Part shown: positions 16,494-26,393 of the stretch, in pieces
How positions within the stretch are numbered: position 1 is the first letter of the stretch
How the letters are laid out: every line of letters begins with the position of its first letter
NCBI GenBank assembly: GCA_944325155.1
Contig: CALUYY010000002.1
Span: 62,001 to 126,000, forward strand
Source: Candidatus Gastranaerophilales bacterium
GTDB taxonomy: Bacteria > Cyanobacteriota > Vampirovibrionia > Gastranaerophilales > Gastranaerophilaceae
DNA: 64,000 nucleotides
Reading direction: 5' to 3'
The notes under the pieces: generated by a model
Seen by the model: the letters and a program-made list of their open reading frames with translations, nothing else
Told to the model about the DNA's origin: nothing
The model's database searches: none
Program-made: the position numbers and the translations under genes

Positions 16494-19400
16494 TTATTTT
16501 TTTAAAAGAAAATCAAAAAAATGCTTTTTTCTGTAATTTGTAATTGTATCCGTTGTAAGCCTTGTTTTCTTGTCATAGGTTTTAACGGCGCTTAAGTATG
16601 CTCTTGCCGTATCTATGCTTGTAAAGCACGGGATACAATACATCTCTGCTATTGTTCTTATCCTGAAACCTGATGTTTGAGAGTTTTTGCCCAGTGTCGG
16701 AGTATTTAAGACAAAACTTAACCTTCCTTCTTTCATACGTTTTTGCAGTTTATCAAGCATAAATTTTTCAATCATTTTAGACGGTATTCCGTTTTTTTCC
16801 AAAAATTTATGCGTTCCCCAGGTTGCCATTATAAAATATCCCTGATTAAACATTTTTCTTACGATTTTAAGTGCGGGTTTTTTATAATGATCGTTTAATG
16901 AAACAAGAACCCTTTGTTTTCTTTGACCGAATTTATATCCGCCTGCTATAAATGCCTTTAAAAGCGCTTTTTTATAATTTGTATCAACCCCTAAAACTTC
17001 GCCCGTTGATTTCATCTCGGGAGCAAGCGCAGGGTCAATTCTGTTTAATTTTTGGAAACTGAACACGGGCATTTTAACGCATACAAGGTTTGATTTTTTG
17101 TATAATCCCGTGCCGAATCCGTGAGATTTAATACTTTTGCCGAGTATTACGTTAACCGCAATTTTTGCCATCGGAATTCCGGTTACTTTTGACATAATGG
17201 GAACCGTTCTTGAGGCTCTGGGGTTAACTTCAATTACATATACAACATCATCTTTAATAATGAATTGTATATTCATTAACCCTATAATATTTGTCTTTTT
17301 AGCTATTTGTTTTGCATAATGAACAAGAGTATTTTCCTGTTTTTTTGTAATATTTTGGCTCGGGTATATGCTCATTGAATCTCCCGAATGCACTCCCGCA
17401 CGTTCAATATGTTCGCAAATCCCGGGGATTAAAACGTCTTTACCGTCTGAAATTGCGTCAAGTTCAACTTCCTGTCCTTCAATATATTGATCGATTAAAA
17501 CGGGGTGCTCCGATGAAAATTTAAATGCTTCGTTAATGTAGGTTAAAAGTTCTTCATCGTTATATACAACCTGCATCCCCCTGCCGCCTATAACATAAGA
17601 AGGTCTGACCAAAACGGGATATCCCAGCTCTTTTGTAGCATCAAGCGCTTCTTGGGAGCTTCTTACCCCCTTTCCTTTAGGCTGCGGGATTTTTAAATCT
17701 CTTAAAAGTTTTTCAAAAACTTTTCTGTCCTCAACGGCATTTATATTCTCTAAGCTCGTGCCTAAAATTTTAACCCCTCTTTCATTTAATTTTGAAGCAA
17801 GGTTAATTGCCGTCTGTCCGCCGAACTGAACCATAACGCCCAAAGGTTTTTCTTTTTTTATAACGTTCATAACGTTTTCTATATTCATCGGTTCAAAATA
17901 TAATCTGTCCGCTATGTCAAAGTCGGTTGAAAGCGTTTCGGGGTTTGAATTTATCATTATCGATTCATAATTATTTTCAGCTATTGCCCAGGATGCATGA
18001 ACCGAACAATAATCAAATTCAATACCCTGCCCTATTCTAATCGGCCCGGAGCCTAAAACCACTATATTTCCTTTTTTCTTTTTATTTTTATCTTCCTGTC
18101 TTTTTTTGATTTTTTCAAGTTCGCATTCTTCGTTGTATGTTGAATAAAAATAAGGCGTCATTGCCGCAAATTCTGCGGCACAGGTGTCAACTATTCTAAA
18201 AGACGCTTCAACATTAAATTTTTCAAACTCTTTTTCTTCAATTCCGGTTATTTTTGAAATTTCCGAATCTAAAAACCCTTCTTCTTTTGCTTTTATATAT
18301 AATTCTTTATCCAGGGGTTTTTCTTTCAGCTGATTTCCAAAATCAATTATTTCTTTTATTTTTGATATAAACCAGAAATCTATTTTTGTAATATCCGATA
18401 TTTTTTTCGGGTCAACACCTCTTTTTAGGGCTTCCGATACTCTGAAAATTCTTCTGTCATCCTGAATTGATAAACTTTCAATTAATTCATCCAATCCGGA
18501 TTGTTCAAACTCTTCTCTTTGGGTAAGGCCGGTATATTTTTCTTCCAATGAAGTAATCGCTTTTTTAAATGCACTGTTAAATGTTCTTCCGATTGCCATA
18601 ATTTCGCCCGTGGCTTTCATTTTTGTGCCTAAAATTCTGTCTCCGTGCGCAAATTTATCAAAAGGCCATTTGGGGATTTTAATTACGACATAATCAAGGC
18701 TCGGTTCAAATGCCGCTACCGTTTTTTTGGTAATTGCGTTTTGAATTTCATGGAGCTTATATCCTATTGCAATTTTTGTCGTTACTTTTGCAATCGGATA
18801 CCCCGTTGCTTTGCTTGCAAGAGCCGATGAGCGGGAAACTCTCGGGTTAACTTCAATTACGTAATATTGGTTTGATTTTGTATCAAGTGCAAATTGAACG
18901 TTGCACCCGCCTTCGATTTTTAAGGCTCTTATAATTTTTATGGCAGATGTTCTTAACATTTGATATTCGTTGTTTGTTAATGTCTGGCTCGGCGCAACAA
19001 CGTATGAATCACCGGTATGAATTCCGATAGGGTCAATATTTTCCATATTGCAAACGGTTATACACGTGTCGTTTGAATCTCTCATGACTTCATATTCGAC
19101 TTCTTTAAACCCTGCTATGCTTTTTTCAACCAAAATCTGGTTAATGGGAGATTGCTGCAGCCCCGTTGTTACATATTGGTCATATTCTTCTTCATTTTTT
19201 GCAATTCCGCCCCCTGAACCCCCGAGGGTGAATGCGGGGCGTATAATAATCGGGAACCCTATTCTCTCCGCAAACTTTTTGGCATCTTCATAACTTGATA
19301 CAATTTCGGATTCCGGAACGGGTTCATTAATTTCATTCATTAAATTTTTAAATAATTCTCTGTCTTCCGCTTTGTTTATGGAATCAATATTTGTCCCGAG

Positions 19401-19745
19401 AAGTCTTAACTTATATTTTTCCAAAATTCCTTTTTTATGCAGTTCCATTGCAAGGTTTAACCCCGTTTGACCGCCCAGCGATGCTATTAAACCGTCGGGA
19501 CGTTCTTTTTGGATGATATCTTCAAGCATATCAACATCTAAGGGTTCAATATAGACTTTATCGGCTACATGTTCATCCGTCATAATTGTTGCGGGGTTTG
19601 AATTTACAAGGACAATTTTTATCCCTTCTTCTTTCAGTGCTCTGCATGCCTGCACTCCCGCATAATCAAACTCTGCCGCCTGCCCTATGACAATCGGACC
19701 GGAGCCTATTACCATAACTTTTTTAAGTCTGTTATCTTTTCCCAT
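16494..19745 (-). CDS. carB: Carbamoyl-phosphate synthase large subunit
   Basis: 1083 residues, full length. Makes carbamoyl phosphate from bicarbonate, two ATP and ammonia channelled from CarA; feeds pyrimidine and arginine synthesis. Two homologous ATP-grasp halves are visible. The first opens [21 protein letters not shown] and the second (about 565) [20 protein letters not shown]. The C-terminal MGS-like allosteric domain (about 940-1083) holds the usual UMP/ornithine site region. Last gene of the operon, 12 bases after carA, with AGGAC before the ATG. A longer than usual Lys-rich insert ([13 protein letters not shown]) precedes the second half. Confidence 0.98.
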   Translation of the reverse strand: [1083 protein letters not shown]

Positions 19746-19757
19746 TTTATTTTGTCC

Positions 19758-20882
19758 TTATCCTACATTTACCATATCATCCGCTTTTCTTACCGGATTT
19801 GTCTGATATTCTTTCATTAATTCAATCCAATCATCAAAAATAATGCTTGCATCCTCGGGCCCCGGTTTTGCTTCGGGGTGGAATTGAACCGCATAAATTT
19901 TTAATCTCGGAGCGTCAAACCCTTCAAGTGTATCATCATCAAGGTTTTTATACGTCGGATTCATAATTCCCGATAAGCTGTTTATATCAACCGCATACCC
20001 GTGGTTTTGCGAAGTCAGCATAACTTTTTGCGTTTGAAGGTTTATAACTGGGTGGTTTCCGCCTCTGTGTCCGTATTTTAATTTATAGGTTTTGGCACCG
20101 AGCGCAATTGATAATAATTGATACCCGAGGCAAATTCCGAAAACGGGAATTTTTCCTATCAATTCTTCAATCGTTTTTAATTCCGTAATGCAATCCTGAG
20201 GGTCTCCGGGGCCGTTTGATAAAAACAAATTTTTATGTCCGTTTGATAAAATAACATCGGAGCTTACGTTTGCGGGATATACGGTAACTCTGCACCCTCT
20301 TTTTGCAAGAGAATTTATAATCCCCGATTTTGTACCGTAATCAATCAGGGCTAAATCTATATTTCCTTCGGGGTTTACCACATAACTTTCTTTTGCGGAT
20401 ACATCCAAAACAACGTCTTTATTCATTTTGTATACGCATATGGCTGCAATTCTTCGGGTTATGTCATCATCGGTAAAAATTGCATCCGTTGTTATCATAC
20501 ATTTCATAACCCCTTTTTCTCTTATTTTGATAACGAGGCTTCTTGTATCTATTCCCTCAATTCCTATAATTCCGTTATTTTTAAGATAATCGGAAAGATT
20601 TTGTTTTGATTTATAATGGGAATCATTTTTTGCATGGTTTTTAACAACAAACCCCAAACATCTTGGAATTGTTGATTCAAAATCTTCGTCGTTTATTCCG
20701 TAGTTTCCGATTTCAGGATATGTCATTGTGATAATTTGATTGGCATAGGAAGGGTCGGTTAAAATTTCCTGATACCCTGTCATAGAGGTGTTAAAAACAA
20801 TTTCGCCTATTTTTGTTCCGAATGCGCCGAAATGTTCGCCTTTATATACGGTGCCGTCTTCTAATATTAATGTTGCAAGCAT
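19758..20882 (-). CDS. carA: Carbamoyl-phosphate synthase small (glutaminase) subunit
   Basis: 374 residues. Hydrolyses glutamine and passes ammonia to CarB. The N-terminal CPSase domain begins MLATLILEDGTVYKGEHFGA. The class-I amidotransferase domain has LSNGPGDPQD, the nucleophile elbow PVFGICLGYQLLSIALGAK with the catalytic Cys, and AVQFHPEAKPGPED with the His/Glu pair. Start overlaps the end of pyrF by 16 bases, so translation is coupled. Confidence 0.98.
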   Translation of the reverse strand: MLATLILEDGTVYKGEHFGAFGTKIGEIVFNTSMTGYQEILTDPSYANQIITMTYPEIGNYGINDEDFESTIPRCLGFVVKNHAKNDSHYKSKQNLSDYLKNNGIIGIEGIDTRSLVIKIREKGVMKCMITTDAIFTDDDITRRIAAICVYKMNKDVVLDVSAKESYVVNPEGNIDLALIDYGTKSGIINSLAKRGCRVTVYPANVSSDVILSNGHKNLFLSNGPGDPQDCITELKTIEELIGKIPVFGICLGYQLLSIALGAKTYKLKYGHRGGNHPVINLQTQKVMLTSQNHGYAVDINSLSGIMNPTYKNLDDDTLEGFDAPRLKIYAVQFHPEAKPGPEDASIIFDDWIELMKEYQTNPVRKADDMVNVG

Positions 20883-21610
20883 AATTCTTCCTCAATTTCT
20901 TTATAAATCATTTTCATTGCTTCAATTCTGTTTTGGGCTTTTGTAACCGCACGTCCCAAAACTATGTAATCCGCTCCTCTTTTAATGGCTTCAGAAGGTG
21001 TTGCAATTCTTTTTTGGTCGTCTTTTAAGCTCCACTTCGGGCGAATTCCGGGGCATAAAACCTTGAATTCTTTCCCGAGTTCTTTTTTTATGTTTTCAAC
21101 TTCAACGGCAGATGCCACAACGCCGTCAAGCCCCGCTTCTTTTGCCAGTTTTGCAAGCTCAAGTGCAAATTTTGAAACATCTTTATCTATTCCGAATTCA
21201 TTATTCATAACATCTTTTGAAATGCTTGTAAGCATTGTAACGCCTAAAATAACGGGCGGTTTTTTGTTTAATTCTTTTGCTTTATTGTCTGCACCTTCTC
21301 TTGCGGATTTCATCATCTCCAAACCGCCCGTACAGTGTATGTTAAAAAAGTTTGCACCCCTTAAAACTATGTTTTCGCTTGCCTTTTTAACGGTGTTCGG
21401 GATGTCGTGGAGTTTAACATCCAGAAAGAAATTTGCATTTTTGGATAAGATATAATTAACAATTTCTAAGCCGTATCCCATAAACAATTGCAGGCCGACT
21501 TTAAAAGTCCCCGTATAATCTTTCATTTCTTCAACGAGTTCTTTTGCTTCTTCAATCGTTTCGACATCCAATGCCAGAACTATTTTCTCTTTAATTTCTT
21601 CATTTATCAT
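20867..21610 (-). CDS. pyrF: Orotidine 5'-phosphate decarboxylase
   Basis: 247 residues. Final step to UMP: decarboxylates OMP. Catalytic Asp/Lys motif FLDVKLHDIPNTVKKA (about 78-93), and the phosphate-binding region VLCPGIRPKW and YIVLGRAVTKAQN near the C-terminus. The length and KLHDIPNT motif fit the subgroup fused or neighbouring to pyrimidine operons in diverse bacteria. ATGA overlap with pyrC. Confidence 0.97.
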   Translation of the reverse strand: MINEEIKEKIVLALDVETIEEAKELVEEMKDYTGTFKVGLQLFMGYGLEIVNYILSKNANFFLDVKLHDIPNTVKKASENIVLRGANFFNIHCTGGLEMMKSAREGADNKAKELNKKPPVILGVTMLTSISKDVMNNEFGIDKDVSKFALELAKLAKEAGLDGVVASAVEVENIKKELGKEFKVLCPGIRPKWSLKDDQKRIATPSEAIKRGADYIVLGRAVTKAQNRIEAMKMIYKEIEEELCLQH

Positions 21611-22596
21611 AATATTTTCCCTTTTAATTCCATACCCTGATAAGGCGTTATTTTACATTTTGAATTGAATTTTCTGCCGTCAACAACCCATTTTTCATCC
21701 AAATCAACCTCAATTTCTCTTTTCGGGTCTATGCTTAGAATTCTTCTCGGGGTATATGCCATTTTTTCAAGCGCCAAATCAAGCCCGAACGTTTGATAAG
21801 AAAGAGAAAATGCGGTCTCTAACCCCGTTATGCCGTTTGGAGCTTTGTTGTACGGTTTTAATTTTTCTTTTTCCGTGTGCGGCGCATGGTCGGTTGAAAT
21901 TACATCTATAACCCCGTTTTTGACCGCTTCGATTACTGCGGTTTTATCTTCAATCGTTCCTAAAGGCGGATTCATTTTAAATCTTCCCGTTTCATCAACG
22001 TTATCTTTTGTAAACGTAAAATAATGGGGCGCGGTTTCTGCGGTTAAGTTAAGTCCTTTTTGTTTTGCAAGTTTTATTAATTCTGTCGTTTCTTTTTTTG
22101 AAACGTGGCAGAAATGAAGCCTCGGGAAATTGCACTCTCCTTTTTTTGCCGCATTTGTTACTTCATCTAAAATTTCAATCTGCCATTTTGCTTCATTTGT
22201 TTCGTCTTCCAGATGCGACATAATAATTTCACCCGTTTTAAGCGCAGACACTAAAACACCTTTGTTTAAAACGGGCAGTCCGTCATTTGAAAAACCGATT
22301 GCACCCGCATTTTTCATTAATTTAAAATCAACGGTAATATCGCTGTTTAAATTTTTTGTAATTGCGCATACGGGATACAATTCAACATCAATTCCCGTTT
22401 CTTTTGCTTTATTTATCATATATTTTATGACATCTTCATTATCGCAAACGGGGTTTGTGTTCGGCATTGTGCAAACTGCCCCGAATCCGCCAAAATATGC
22501 GGATTTAAGCCCTGTTAAAATTGTTTCTTTTTCAATGAAGCCCGGGTCTCTGAAATGAACATGCATATCTATAAAAGAAGGAAGTTTTTTAATCAT
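21607..22596 (-). CDS. pyrC: Dihydroorotase
   Basis: 329 residues. Cyclises carbamoyl aspartate to dihydroorotate. Metal-binding motif DMHVHFRDPGF (about 9-19), which includes the HxH pair, and DVISTDHAPHTEKEK near 235 with the metal/catalytic Asp. Shorter than the roughly 420-residue class-I enzymes, so N- and C-terminal composite domains are reduced. The carboxylated Lys expected in some classes was not assigned. It overlaps pyrF and pyrB by 4 bases each. Confidence 0.95.
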   Translation of the reverse strand: MIKKLPSFIDMHVHFRDPGFIEKETILTGLKSAYFGGFGAVCTMPNTNPVCDNEDVIKYMINKAKETGIDVELYPVCAITKNLNSDITVDFKLMKNAGAIGFSNDGLPVLNKGVLVSALKTGEIIMSHLEDETNEAKWQIEILDEVTNAAKKGECNFPRLHFCHVSKKETTELIKLAKQKGLNLTAETAPHYFTFTKDNVDETGRFKMNPPLGTIEDKTAVIEAVKNGVIDVISTDHAPHTEKEKLKPYNKAPNGITGLETAFSLSYQTFGLDLALEKMAYTPRRILSIDPKREIEVDLDEKWVVDGRKFNSKCKITPYQGMELKGKIL

Positions 22597-23477
22597 ATTC
22601 TTCCCTCTTTAAAAATTTTATCCAATATCGCCATTCTTATGTAAACGCCGTTTTCAGCCTGATTTAGAATTGTTTTCCCTTGAGAAGAATCTATAACATC
22701 GGATGTTATTTCAACATCTCTGTTAACAGGCCCCGGGTGCATTAAAAGTGCGTTTTCCGGTAGATTTTCTTTTGAAATTCTGTAATTTTTAATATAATCA
22801 TCTTTTGATATTTCTTTTTCAAGCCTTTCTGTTTGAATTCTGAGGCACATAACAACATCCGCCCCCAAAAGTGCATTATTCAGATTTTTTTCATAATATA
22901 CACCTTCAATATTGTCTTGAAAATATTCCGGTGCCGAACAGACAACATCCGCCCCTTCTTTTTTTAACAGTGCGACATTTGATCTTGCAACCCTTGAATG
23001 TTTAATGTCGCCCACAATGACAACTTTTTTATTTTTAACCGAACCCAAATGTTCAATTATTGTAAAATAATCCAATAATGCCTGTGTCGGGTGCGAAGAC
23101 TTTCCTTCTCCCGCATTTATAAAGTGAACTGGTTTATAGAAATTTTTTTCTTTTAATTTTTCGATTAAATTTTCTTCCCTTGTTCTTATAATAAATGTAT
23201 TTATGCCTATTGCGCTCATGTTATTTATCGTATCAAACAGTTCTTCTCCTTTTGTAATTGAGGATTTTGCCGTGTCAAAAACATAAACGTTTGCTCCAAG
23301 GCGCTTTAGGGCGCATTCAAATGAAAATCTCGTCCTTGTCGAATTTTCAAAAAACATTAAAGCTGCATGACGGGTCGGATAATTTGCATATTTTCCCGTT
23401 TTAAAGCTTTTTGCCGCTTCAATAATGTTTTGTATTTCTTCTTTTGTCAGATTTTCGATTTTATCAAGATGTTTCAT
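22593..23477 (-). CDS. pyrB: Aspartate carbamoyltransferase catalytic subunit
   Basis: 294 residues. Joins carbamoyl phosphate and aspartate. Carbamoyl-phosphate site FFENSTRTRFSFECA (about 44-58), active-site HPTQALLDYFTI (about 127-138), and HPGPVNRDVEI near 245. No regulatory subunit gene pyrI is in the operon, so the enzyme is probably a simple trimer without the CTP-binding chain. It lies between pyrE (1-base gap) and pyrC (4-base overlap). Confidence 0.98.
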   Translation of the reverse strand: MKHLDKIENLTKEEIQNIIEAAKSFKTGKYANYPTRHAALMFFENSTRTRFSFECALKRLGANVYVFDTAKSSITKGEELFDTINNMSAIGINTFIIRTREENLIEKLKEKNFYKPVHFINAGEGKSSHPTQALLDYFTIIEHLGSVKNKKVVIVGDIKHSRVARSNVALLKKEGADVVCSAPEYFQDNIEGVYYEKNLNNALLGADVVMCLRIQTERLEKEISKDDYIKNYRISKENLPENALLMHPGPVNRDVEITSDVIDSSQGKTILNQAENGVYIRMAILDKIFKEGRI

Positions 23478-23478
23478 T

Positions 23479-24063
23479 TTATTTGCCTTTTCTGCTTCCC
23501 GGTTTTACGATTTCAATGCCCTGTCTGCATAAGGGGCAATTTTCGGGCTCATATACAACGGGGTCAATTTTCAATAATGAATTTATTTTTAATTTGTCAT
23601 CAAGTTTTCCTTGAGTTCTGTCCACTATACAGCCCACTCCTTTGATTTCAACTTCATATTCCTTAATTGCATCAATCGTTTCAAAAATTGTTCTTGCCGT
23701 TGTTATAACATCTTCAATAATAACTACTCTTTCACCTTTTTTTAAGGTATAACCCCTTCTTAATTGCATTACATCATCTTTTCTTTCAACAAAAAGATTT
23801 CTTTTTTTTGCCTGTTTTGCAACTTCATATCCGAAAATGACTGCTCCTATGGCTGGCGCTATAATTGTGTCATATTCAATACCGGCTAATTTTTCCGCAA
23901 GTTTTTTTCCTATTATTTCAACAATATCGGGGTATTGGTATAATTTTGCGCACTGAAAATAAGTGTCGCTGTGAAGCCCCGATGTCAGACAAAAATGCCC
24001 GTGTAATAAGCCGTCTGCTTTAATTAAAAGTTCTTTAACGTCAATATCGTTTAATGTGTTCAT
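23479..24063 (-). CDS. pyrE: Orotate phosphoribosyltransferase
   Basis: 194 residues. Makes OMP from orotate and PRPP. The PRPP motif VVIIEDVITTARTIFETI is at about 113-130, and the lysines of the flexible loop are seen in ERKDDVMQLRRGYTLKKGE. This is the short family type with a C-terminal CPLCRQG motif. It overlaps pyrD by 4 bases (ATGA). Confidence 0.97.
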   Translation of the reverse strand: MNTLNDIDVKELLIKADGLLHGHFCLTSGLHSDTYFQCAKLYQYPDIVEIIGKKLAEKLAGIEYDTIIAPAIGAVIFGYEVAKQAKKRNLFVERKDDVMQLRRGYTLKKGERVVIIEDVITTARTIFETIDAIKEYEVEIKGVGCIVDRTQGKLDDKLKINSLLKIDPVVYEPENCPLCRQGIEIVKPGSRKGK

Positions 24064-24977
24064 TCTCTTAACTTCCTTTTTAATTCTTCAATGTTATCAA
24101 TATTTAATTTATTCATTAATTTATCTAAATCATTTATGATTTTTTCGCAAACATCGGGGTGTGTAAAATTTTCCGTTCCGATTTGAACGCAGTCCGCACC
24201 GACGGATAAAAATTCCAAAACATCATTAATGTTTGAAATTCCGCCTATTCCGATTACGGGAATTTTAACAACCGATTTAATTCTTTTTACCATAGATAAT
24301 GCAACCGGTTTAATGCACCTTCCGGATAACCCCCCTTGAACAAGCGACTTTTTAAACGTTTTATCGGGTAAAATTTCAATTTTTACACCCAGACCTTTCA
24401 GCGTATTAATTGCGCTTATACAGTCTGCCCCCGCATTTTGGGCGGCAAGCGCCAGAGATTCAATGTCTGAAACATTGGGGGTTAATTTTATAATTAAAAA
24501 GCCTTTGTATTCTTTTCTTATTGATTCTGTCAGCTTTGAAAGGCTCCCGGGCATTGTTCCGAATTCAAGGCACCCTTGTTTGACGTTCGGACAGGAAACG
24601 TTGACTTCAATCGCTTTAATGCCGTTTTTATCCGCAATTTTTGCCGCTTCTATATAATCTTCAAAGGCTGAGCCCGCAAGATTCATAACAAAATTTATGT
24701 CTTTTTCTTTTAAGACGGGAAGTTTTTTTTCAATAAATTCTTTTACTCCGACATTTTCAAGCCCGATTCTGTTTATCATTCCGGCTGTTGTTTCAAAAAT
24801 TCTTTCCCCAGTGTTTCCTTTTTTGGGGTTTATTGAAATTGCTTTTGTTACGATTGCGCCCAATTTTGAAACATTAATAAAATCTTCAAATTCATCAGCA
24901 TATCCGAACGTGCCCGATGCGGTCATTATCGGATTTTTAAGTTCAAAAATTCCCAATTTCGTTTTCAGATTTGCCAT
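24060..24977 (-). CDS. pyrD: Dihydroorotate dehydrogenase, class 1B catalytic subunit
   Basis: 305 residues. FMN enzyme oxidising dihydroorotate to orotate, using NAD through PyrK. The catalytic Cys base lies in VNVSCPNVKQG (about 128-138), with FMN/phosphate loops VIGIGGISNINDVLEFLSVG and CVQIGTEN near the C-terminus. Class 1B is supported by the adjacent pyrK and by the Cys (class 2 uses Ser). It overlaps pyrK by 13 bases. Confidence 0.97.
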   Translation of the reverse strand: MANLKTKLGIFELKNPIMTASGTFGYADEFEDFINVSKLGAIVTKAISINPKKGNTGERIFETTAGMINRIGLENVGVKEFIEKKLPVLKEKDINFVMNLAGSAFEDYIEAAKIADKNGIKAIEVNVSCPNVKQGCLEFGTMPGSLSKLTESIRKEYKGFLIIKLTPNVSDIESLALAAQNAGADCISAINTLKGLGVKIEILPDKTFKKSLVQGGLSGRCIKPVALSMVKRIKSVVKIPVIGIGGISNINDVLEFLSVGADCVQIGTENFTHPDVCEKIINDLDKLMNKLNIDNIEELKRKLRE

Positions 24978-25687
24978 ATAACTTTATCCCCGTCAAAAAT
25001 CGGGCCGTCTTTGCAAACGGTTTTATTAACCGTTTGTCCGTTTTGTTTGTATTCAATAACACATCCTCTGCAGACACCGATTGAACAAGCCATTGTTTTT
25101 TCCATTGAAACTTCGGTTTTTACATTGTTTTTGATTCCGAATTCAGATACCAGTTTTAATACGATATTTGGTCCGCAGGAATAAATTATATCGGGTTTTA
25201 ATTCATTGTTCAGCTCTTCGATATAATCGACAACGCTTCCGCCGATTACCGTTTTATCCGACCCTTCTATAATTTCGTCTTTTTCCTTAAAGCCCGTTAT
25301 CAAAAAGTTTTTAATCCCTTTTTTATTTAATTCTTTTTTTAAAAATAACATCGGAGCAATTCCTATGCCTGCACCGATTAAAAGCGCCGTTTTTATTCTT
25401 TCGTAATTAAATGTATTTCCCATTGCGCCTATAAAATCGACCGTATCGTCTTTTTTCAGTGATTTTATATAATTTGTGCCTTCACCTTTTATTTTGTATA
25501 AAACGGTAATTTCACCGTTATTAAAATCCATAATGCTGAAAGGGCGCCTGAGCGTTTTATTTTCGCACAAAATCGAGATAAATTGTCCCCCGTATGCTTC
25601 TTTCATATCGGTTTTTAAGACGATTTTATACGTGTCTTTTGCAATTTTTTCGTTATATAAAACAATTCCCTTATGATTTTTTTTCAT
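24965..25687 (-). CDS. pyrK: Dihydroorotate dehydrogenase electron-transfer subunit
   Basis: 240 residues from the ATG. FAD/NAD-binding ferredoxin-reductase fold passing electrons from PyrD to NAD. The FAD motif is LRRPFSIMDF (about 46-55), the NAD-binding glycine loop LLIGAGIGIAPM (about 100-111), and the [2Fe-2S] ligands lie in MACSIGVCRGCVIEY plus a downstream VCKDG. An in-frame TTG 30 bases upstream would give a longer protein but lies inside the leader hairpin, so the ATG is preferred. First structural gene of the eight-gene pyr operon. Confidence 0.95.
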   Translation of the reverse strand: MKKNHKGIVLYNEKIAKDTYKIVLKTDMKEAYGGQFISILCENKTLRRPFSIMDFNNGEITVLYKIKGEGTNYIKSLKKDDTVDFIGAMGNTFNYERIKTALLIGAGIGIAPMLFLKKELNKKGIKNFLITGFKEKDEIIEGSDKTVIGGSVVDYIEELNNELKPDIIYSCGPNIVLKLVSEFGIKNNVKTEVSMEKTMACSIGVCRGCVIEYKQNGQTVNKTVCKDGPIFDGDKVIWQI

Positions 25688-25699
25688 CTTTTTCCCGTT

Positions 25700-25735
25700 A
25701 AAAAAAGAGAAAGACAATTTGAGCCTTTCTCTTTT
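25700..25735 (-). terminator. Possible attenuator hairpin in the pyr operon leader
   Basis: Perfect 11-base inverted repeat (25703-25713 with 25725-25735), 11-base loop, then T's on the transcribed strand, located before the pyrK ATG rather than after a gene. The stem is weak (only three G-C pairs). Its upstream arm overlaps the stop codon of a 12-codon leader ORF. Confidence 0.5.
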
Positions 25736-25772
25736 ATCTTATATTCTTTTCTTTATGTTTAAATTTGTTCAT
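25734..25772 (-). CDS. Putative 12-residue leader peptide of the pyr operon
   Basis: Small ORF MNKFKHKEKNIR preceded by GGGGAAG. It ends exactly at the 5' arm of the attenuator-like hairpin, so a ribosome finishing it would cover the stem. The arrangement resembles UTP-sensing attenuation of enterobacterial pyrBI. No sequence similarity is claimed, and coding is inferred only from position. Confidence 0.4.
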   Translation of the reverse strand: MNKFKHKEKNIR

Positions 25773-25791
25773 TAACTTCCCCAATGCCTTG

Positions 25792-25820
25792 ATTATACAT
25801 CCCGCAAAATTAAATTTAAA
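25792..25820 (-). promoter_or_regulatory. Putative pyr operon promoter
   Basis: TATAAT at 25792-25797, with a weak TTTAAA -35 at 25815-25820 and 17-base spacing, reading toward the leader peptide and pyrK. Predicted start lies about 15 bases before the leader ORF. Confidence 0.5.
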
Positions 25821-25826
25821 CCGCTA

Positions 25827-25843
25827 TGTAAACAATTGTTACA
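25827..25843. promoter_or_regulatory. Near-palindrome TGTAAACAATTGTTACA between pyr operon and next gene
   Basis: 17-base near-palindrome differing at two positions from the 17-mer found before both coiled-coil paralogues. It lies about 70 bases before the + strand gene and just upstream of the predicted pyr promoter, so it could act on either side. Confidence 0.4.
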
Positions 25844-25913: not shown

Positions 25914-26393
25914 ATGAACATCAACGGTATCAATGCAAATAACAACTTAATTGATGTAAACAACGTCAACAAAGTTTCCGCTGATTTATTTGCAGCATTA
26001 AAGAAAAAATCCGTTGATTATTCAAAACAAGATTTAACAAGATTTACAAGAGCAACTTTAGGTGTTGATTTATACAGCCAGAAAACGGATATAAATGTTC
26101 AAAGACAAATCGCAATTACAAATTCGGGTGCTTTTCAAAATAATATGAACCTTCAATCCGTTCAGGCTCTCAACTCCTTCGCCGCTCAAAATTTATACGC
26201 TAACAGTGTTCAAAATGCGGTTGGCGGCAAAATGACAATCGCTCAAAACCCCGCTGAAATTGAATTTGTTTCAAGAACGGAAGATGTTTCAAATTTAATC
26301 AATGTTTTTGAAACGGATAAAGACAAAAAAGATTCTAACCCCTTTGCTTTTGATACATTCACCCCTGAAAGATCTCAAAAGCAGGAAGCATAA
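25914..26393 (+). CDS. Hypothetical 159-residue Asn/Gln-rich protein
   Basis: Not recognised. Soluble, rich in Asn, Gln, Val and Ala, beginning MNINGINANNNLIDVNNVN. It is probably largely helical in the middle (SVQALNSFAAQNLYANSVQNA), with a polar tail ending KQEA. No signal peptide or membrane span. Translation is well supported by AAGGAGAATGGAG before the ATG. The upstream region carries a 17-base near-palindrome similar to those of the coiled-coil paralogues, which hints at shared regulation. Divergent from the pyr operon. Confidence 0.75.
   Translation: MNINGINANNNLIDVNNVNKVSADLFAALKKKSVDYSKQDLTRFTRATLGVDLYSQKTDINVQRQIAITNSGAFQNNMNLQSVQALNSFAAQNLYANSVQNAVGGKMTIAQNPAEIEFVSRTEDVSNLINVFETDKDKKDSNPFAFDTFTPERSQKQEA

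Follow-up and report, generated by a model that had tools for sequence, protein, structure and literature searches.

Pyrimidine attenuators of the Firmicutes are controlled by PyrR, with a terminator situated ahead of the pyr genes. In the pyrBI operon of Escherichia coli, as described in the accessible part of one source, the UTP signal is read by pausing on a leader with 49% U, and a trailing ribosome occludes the terminator hairpin (PMC10135430). Broader work on stop codons and intrinsic terminators, in the portion available, places the ribosome footprint at about 10 nt beyond the A site and reports that ribosomes repress intrinsic terminators lying a few bases after a stop codon, while more than 20 bp separate the leader gene from the terminator in amino-acid attenuators; the same portion argues that repression is much weaker for terminators in the first 100 bp, and that leaders secure coupling through pausing sites (PMC4824070). 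Reiterative transcription at the start site is also known for pyrimidine genes of E. coli, according to the accessible part of a further source (PMC6245113).

The window considered here (the whole stretch of DNA that was analysed, 64,000 nucleotides) carries on its minus strand a complete operon for UMP synthesis, in the order pyrK-pyrD-pyrE-pyrB-pyrC-pyrF-carA-carB. Its leader very probably houses a translation-coupled terminator under the control of a ribosome on a short leader ORF, a reading that draws on the sequence of this locus and its relatives. The parts are as follows:

25792 to 25820, minus strand: promoter-like sequence, TTTAAA (25820-25815), a 17-nt spacer and TATAAT (25797-25792), recognized from sequence.
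25776 to 25782, minus strand: GGGGAAG, a Shine-Dalgarno-like sequence, recognized from sequence.
25734 to 25772, minus strand: putative leader ORF with its ATG at 25772, 12 codons (MNKFKHKEKNIR) plus TAA (25736-25734).
25703 to 25735, minus strand: terminator-like hairpin with a perfect 11-bp stem, from sequence, folding and relatives.
25700 to 25706, minus strand: U tract of seven T, four of them closing the 3' arm and three beyond it.
24965 to 25687, minus strand: pyrK, dihydroorotate dehydrogenase electron transfer subunit, ATG start at 25687.
16494 to 24977, minus strand: remainder of the operon (pyrD, pyrE, pyrB, pyrC, pyrF, carA, carB), from NCBIfam matches.

The TATAAT, the GGGGAAG, the 12-codon ORF with its TAA, the 11-bp hairpin, the T run and pyrK had been pointed out in an earlier note on this DNA, and each was confirmed on the minus strand, down to the base. 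The overlap between leader stop and 5' arm that it described is also there, the TAA (25736-25734) and the hairpin, which begins at 25735, having two bases in common. The arms (AAAAGAGAAAG, 25735-25725, and CTTTCTCTTTT, 25713-25703) form a stem of 11 bp that folding extends to 13 bp through two inner pairs, and a 16S rRNA 3' end with CCTCC was found in the window's own genome (labelled G000 in the comparisons). Six of the genes (pyrD, pyrE, pyrB, pyrF, carA and carB) each score above an NCBIfam cut-off; the top NCBIfam match of the pyrK product reaches 161 bits, below the curated cut-off of 219, and the top matches of pyrC are dihydroorotases, also under the cut-off. A TTG at 25717, within the hairpin, is an alternative pyrK start that opens a 250-aa ORF and was the choice of the ORF finder; gene finders may place the pyrK start there, masking the leader. 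A near-palindrome (GTAACAATTGTTTAC, 25828-25842), present in some congeners too and a possible operator or promoter part, lies between the pyr promoter and the divergent gene at 25914.

The resemblance to pyrBI and its leader PyrL lies in the short leader ORF, in an intrinsic terminator immediately ahead of the first pyrimidine gene and in the lack of a regulatory protein, and would extend, by sequence and geometry, to the trailing ribosome that occludes the hairpin in E. coli (PMC10135430, accessible part). The anatomy differs in several respects. PyrL has 44 codons (E. coli K-12 record), and the Gastranaerophilales leader, with about 12, has about a quarter of that length; the PyrL stop lies 44 nt past the first base of the hairpin, through which the ORF reads, whereas here the ORF mostly ends at the hairpin and reads through it in 5 of 99 leaders. 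A pyrimidine-rich stretch precedes the hairpin in pyrL and is found in none of 86 Gastranaerophilales leaders, and purines make up 25% of the hairpin 5' arm in the former and a median of 92% in the latter (103 hairpins, unfiltered set). The first gene of the operon is pyrB in pyrBI and pyrK here; likeness was judged by reading both sequences. Since the pause tract is absent and the read-through ORF confined to so few leaders, we class the element as pyrBI-like in its working and keep it apart from the pyrBI family proper. The earlier note had seen in it the logic of UTP-sensing pyrBI attenuation: the part in which a ribosome positioned at the stop would block the hairpin stands, on geometry and on the accessible portion of the stop-codon work (PMC4824070), whereas the pyrimidine pause tract upstream is absent.

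Other known systems are alike in part. In the rph-pyrE attenuator of E. coli an ORF also ends ahead of a pyrimidine-gene terminator, although that ORF is a full gene with its stop 37 nt before the hairpin, and the Gastranaerophilales leader is a 12-codon ORF of its own that stops at the stem. The attenuators of the Firmicutes share the terminator before the pyr genes, but PyrR and a match to the PyrR-binding RNA were not detected here. The leader-peptide attenuators of trp and his share the combination of leader ORF and terminator, but they differ in their pathway-linked control codons and strong competing fold, neither of which is found here; unlike in amino-acid attenuators, with their spacing of more than 20 bp (PMC4824070, portion available), the stop lies at the hairpin. 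The logic is known from pyrBI; the short ORF, the stop at the hairpin and the lack of an upstream pause tract constitute, as far as the sequences indicate, a new anatomy.

Regions upstream of pyrK were drawn from family and order genomes plus named genomes, amounting to 111 distinct loci (142 scan rows with duplicates), and were scanned for hairpins that combine a purine-rich 5' arm with a T-rich tail no more than 260 nt upstream of pyrK. Of the 80 named records kept, the best ten share 57-68% identity in PyrK and are titled Candidatus Gastranaerophilales; those ranked lower bear the same title or others, e.g., uncultured bacterium, Cyanobacteria or Melainabacteria. The purine-armed hairpin was found in 96 of the 111 loci (Candidatus Gastranaerophilales and order relatives). 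As for the remaining 15, three sit on contigs with merely 66-202 nt upstream; in G166 with L181 the hairpin lies at 78 nt and falls below the T-count threshold; and in L158, L174 with G209, and L183 with G106 inserted sequence places it 270-386 nt upstream, and an ORF was recognized by eye. Eight loci, belonging to two further families of the order (f2 and f3), have pyrK without such a hairpin within 260 nt, and widening the scan and lowering its T threshold brought up no purine-armed hairpin of this kind in these eight genomes. Outside f2 and f3, the hairpin is present in 100 of the 100 loci with sufficient upstream sequence. In families f1, f6 and f7 it occurs in at least one genome of each of the 20 genera with pyrK that were checked, 18 of which also have a leader ORF under a strict rule (8-16 codons, stop at -13 to +12), the others having an ORF of 21 codons (g9) or seven (g55). 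The sole pyrK of family f4 (G037) lies 142 nt from a contig end, so this family is outside the judgement. The earlier note had named relatives lacking both ORF and hairpin as the finding that would speak against it; the idea survives in three families and 20 genera, and f2 and f3 (eight genomes) are without the element.

A close pyrK is lacking in 122 of 191 family genomes. In 15 of these, which are 92-99% complete, a pyrB match was found in 0 of 15 and a pyrD match was absent from 14, the exception being a match at 30% identity in G033. De novo pyrimidine synthesis seems to have been lost in much of the family, and the element is tied to the pyrimidine pathway, since these 15 genomes without a close pyrK are also without a pyrB match and, G033 aside, without one for pyrD.

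The leader arrangement is not due to chance. Counting ORFs of 6-25 codons that start with ATG and end at -13 to +12 of the hairpin, and comparing them with 100 rounds of dinucleotide shuffling of the upstream 106 nt, such an ORF is present in 89 of the 99 distinct leaders; the shuffles average 17.2 and reach 25 at most. When one of six Shine-Dalgarno 4-mers is also required the figures are 52 and 1.6 (maximum 5), the window's leader being counted in the former comparison only, because its GGGGAAG is outside the six 4-mers. The set of 99 omits exact duplicates, G166, G051, G049 and L181 (5' arm less than 79% purine) and L170 (upstream sequence too short); the 86-leader sets (ORF statistics, ribosome masking, promoter spacing, U fractions) and the pyrimidine-run set derive from these filtered 99. 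Ordinary terminators of the window's genome (83 listed, 464 kb) gave 0 of 83 with such an ORF and a Shine-Dalgarno sequence, a count that may miss some at locus edges. Scanning 197 hairpins in the same 464-kb sample returned five matches (four places, one of them on both strands) with an ORF ending there and a gene downstream, and a Shine-Dalgarno-like sequence, from a list widened with GGGG and GGAA, was present at the pyr leader only. Ten leaders fail the ATG rule: one has a GTG start and nine have an ATG frame, which stops within the hairpin in G072, G016, G076 and G168 and reads through it in G189, G118, G150, G157 and G063; this looser rule, admitting frames that end inside or run through the hairpin, stands without a shuffle control. 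In L091 and L093 (G189, G118) the leader ORF runs through the hairpin and ends just past the likely pyrK start, as in E. coli pyrL.

In the 86 ORFs, which the rule selects for a stop at the hairpin, the stop offset peaks at -1 (37 of 86); their length peaks at 12 codons (29 of 86), and TAA is the stop in 67. Pair differences at codon positions 1/2/3 are 3/3/19 in four leaders of the window's genus and 11/12/22 in genus g45; the excess at third positions is seen in two of six clusters and is weak or nil in the other four, and the true frame gives the top BLOSUM mean in all six. In 81 of 86 leaders, against 60.9 expected from shuffles, a TATAAT with at least five of six positions matching is found no further than 45 nt from the leader start, and the distance from this -10 box to the leader start codon peaks at 21-22 nt (36 of 81).

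The hairpin dominates the fold of the 96-nt leader (-16.3 kcal/mol, z = -2.45), a value reached by 6 of 200 shuffles; such fold statistics from a single genome are weak, and the decisive evidence is comparative. In an alignment that took 45 of 87 hairpins, both-side changes occur in six of the eight consensus stem pairs, so that pairing persists although the bases vary. The earlier note had been tempered by the weakness of the stem, a fair description that amounts to no objection, the hairpin energy being -15.2 kcal/mol in the window and a median of -13.2 over 86 leaders. The longest pyrimidine run in hairpin plus tail has a median of 15 in the 99 pyr leaders (selected for a purine-rich 5' arm), 66 of which reach 14, against a median of 6 in the 83 ordinary terminators of the window's genome, none of which does, and of 8 in 69 terminators of relatives, where 6 do. 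A 5' arm of at least 90% purine was found in 5 of the 83 terminators of this first control set, one of them being the pyr hairpin on the opposite strand, and in 16 of the 69 in relatives, of which one (L170) is an overlooked pyr leader. An oligopyrimidine 3' arm as a trait unique to pyr was rejected, since the second control set also has cases, though it is enriched at pyr. A covariance model of the hairpin (R1), run over 56 genomes, gave the pyr leaders as its 13 best places; it is not counted as evidence, because it was built from pyr leaders and also matches other terminator-like sites.

We propose that transcription starts just upstream of the leader ORF of about 12 codons and that, with no ribosome close behind, the nascent RNA would form the hairpin and the polymerase would halt at the U tract, leaving the operon off by default. 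A slowed polymerase would allow the first ribosome to get to the leader stop abutting the 5' arm, where its presence would prevent the hairpin and let the polymerase proceed into pyrK. A default-off operon turned on by slow polymerase is also what the arguments on the first 100 bp and on pausing would suggest (PMC4824070, portion available). With the stop codon in the A site and the footprint masked, 60 of 86 leaders retain a stem weaker than -3 kcal/mol (in the window 0.0 vs -15.2 kcal/mol unmasked); in the other 26 the stop lies further upstream and the masked residual stem is -3 kcal/mol or stronger, which counts against occlusion. A ribosome placed five codons before the stop leaves a stem of -8 kcal/mol or stronger in 86 of 86. 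Ahead of the hairpin the sequence has little structure of its own (median -3.6 kcal/mol); with no strong competing antiterminator in sight, direct occlusion would be the simplest mechanism, not trp-like switching.

The likeliest signal would be the supply of pyrimidine nucleotides: when UTP (and CTP) run low, the U-rich loop and the oligopyrimidine 3' arm would be synthesized slowly, and the ribosome would gain time. What the computations bear out is the set of parts, how they are conserved and spaced, and the disappearance of the stem beneath a footprint placed at the stop; translation of the leader ORF, termination at the hairpin and a UTP/CTP signal are inferred. With pyrimidine sensing included, a translation-coupled attenuator is a reading that we favour with moderate confidence. 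The sign of the UTP effect would hinge on the ribosome winning the race, because slow synthesis of the U tract itself favours termination. The U fraction from start codon to hairpin apex averages 0.27 over 86 leaders (0.17 in the window), and from apex to tail end 0.68 (0.61 in the window), and a pyrimidine run of at least eight before the hairpin was found in 0 of 86; the uridine demand therefore lies within the terminator (loop, 3' arm, tail). This demand could be the sensor, or else a common build of a terminator in an A+T-rich genome, and it is here that the case for pyrimidine sensing is weakest. A test for avoidance of pyrimidine runs ahead of the hairpin was negative (3.67 observed vs 3.83 shuffled), and reiterative transcription was considered and rejected, as no U run follows the -10 box in the window's leader or in most leaders, judged by eye. 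Tentatively, and with somewhat more doubt than belief, the element may be an independently evolved pyrimidine sensor of about 80 nt in which the terminator itself senses: a purine 5' arm and a pyrimidine 3' arm would tie completion of the hairpin to UTP and CTP, timed against a 12-codon ribosome run ending on the 5' arm. If so, a protein, a riboswitch fold and a separate pause site would all be dispensable.

The same ribosome-controlled terminator could instead respond to a signal other than UTP, namely the general speed of translation or transcription (growth rate, ppGpp or the rate of initiation at the leader), so that expression would be fixed or would follow growth. The geometry is equally compatible with such a signal, and the missing U-rich pause tract before the hairpin, with U at 0.27 before the apex, speaks in its favour. 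However, the element accompanies the pyrimidine operon, the pyrK-less genomes tested being without pathway genes; the full arrangement recurs at no other gene among the 197 hairpins; and the longest pyrimidine run of the hairpin region exceeds that of ordinary terminators, with a median of 15 vs 6 (8 in the relatives' controls). We consider a non-UTP signal unlikely, if still worth weighing against pyrimidine sensing.

In attenuation by an amino acid or an arrest peptide, the ribosome would stall at certain codons or on its nascent peptide, and the leader peptides do offer material for it: Lys makes up 24% of them, and the motifs KIEY or KFVYF are common to related leaders. Nevertheless, A- and U-rich codons can be expected to yield Lys, Asn, Ile, Tyr and Phe, the peptide sequence varies across genera, and the content of Gln (0.7%), Asp (1.5%) and Arg (5.2%) carries no signal for the amino acids that feed the pathway. 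A strong competing fold is absent, and the stop adjoins the terminator, vs more than 20 bp in amino-acid attenuators (PMC4824070, portion available). Attenuation by amino acids was rejected on codons (86 ORFs), fold and spacing, and amino-acid or arrest-peptide control as a whole is very improbable.

Action of PyrR, another RNA-binding protein or a riboswitch on the terminator has still less to commend it and is given little credence. The claim of the earlier note that pyrR is missing held on a wider search, with 0 of 20 genomes above the cut-off of one NCBIfam model (NF003545), against 4 of 14 control genomes. Rfam, the PyrR-binding RNA included, gave no gathering-level match in 15 kb, and at E up to 5 six matches only, all far under their gathering scores; moreover, apart from the hairpin, the leader offers only a short stretch with a weak fold. 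A weak phosphoribosyltransferase match in the window's genome (20 bits, cut-off 140) is conceivably a distant regulator. That the hairpin is a stability or translation element of the pyrK mRNA, or an antisense terminator, with the ORF incidental, is hardly credible: the 5' arm does start with A's, so that the reverse strand reads as a terminator too, but a U run of at least six stands at the stem end in 82 of 86 leaders, the start of pyrK itself lies beyond the hairpin, the ORF is far more frequent than chance allows and the spacing from promoter to ORF is sharply peaked.

If translation-coupled attenuation is indeed at work here, repressor-free repression through coupled transcription and translation would occur, in a smaller version, among the gut-dwelling relatives of cyanobacteria, a long way from the enterobacteria. 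It would predict tight transcription-translation coupling in Gastranaerophilales, a point open for most bacteria, and would provide a compact natural part in which sensor and switch are perhaps one hairpin. Among the matches listed in the literature, largely without subscription papers, no title or abstract opening deals with such an element in Gastranaerophilales or Melainabacteria, and the words "Cyanobacteria" and "pyrimidine" are both absent from the main text, in its accessible part, of a genome-wide survey of attenuators (PMC2965389).

Some loci show further peculiarities upstream of pyrK. The f3 loci L103-L107 and L110 (G046, G055, G056, G051, G042, G049) are without the attenuator there, and most of these six show by eye an AGTA-n-TTTACT-like palindrome just before a box resembling TATAGAAT, with three tandem copies in G051; this palindrome is possibly a regulator site replacing the attenuator. 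The f2 loci L108 and L109 (G035, G041) have a different hairpin 128-191 nt before pyrK, with a G-rich 5' arm and a C/T-rich 3' arm, which may end an upstream gene or be another attenuator. An insert of about 150-390 nt, partly repeat-like, lies between hairpin and pyrK in L158, L174, L183, L073 and L087. Finally, L172 (JAMPIJ010000010.1), titled Fusobacterium sp., bears a pyr leader of the Gastranaerophilales type, and its title is probably wrong.
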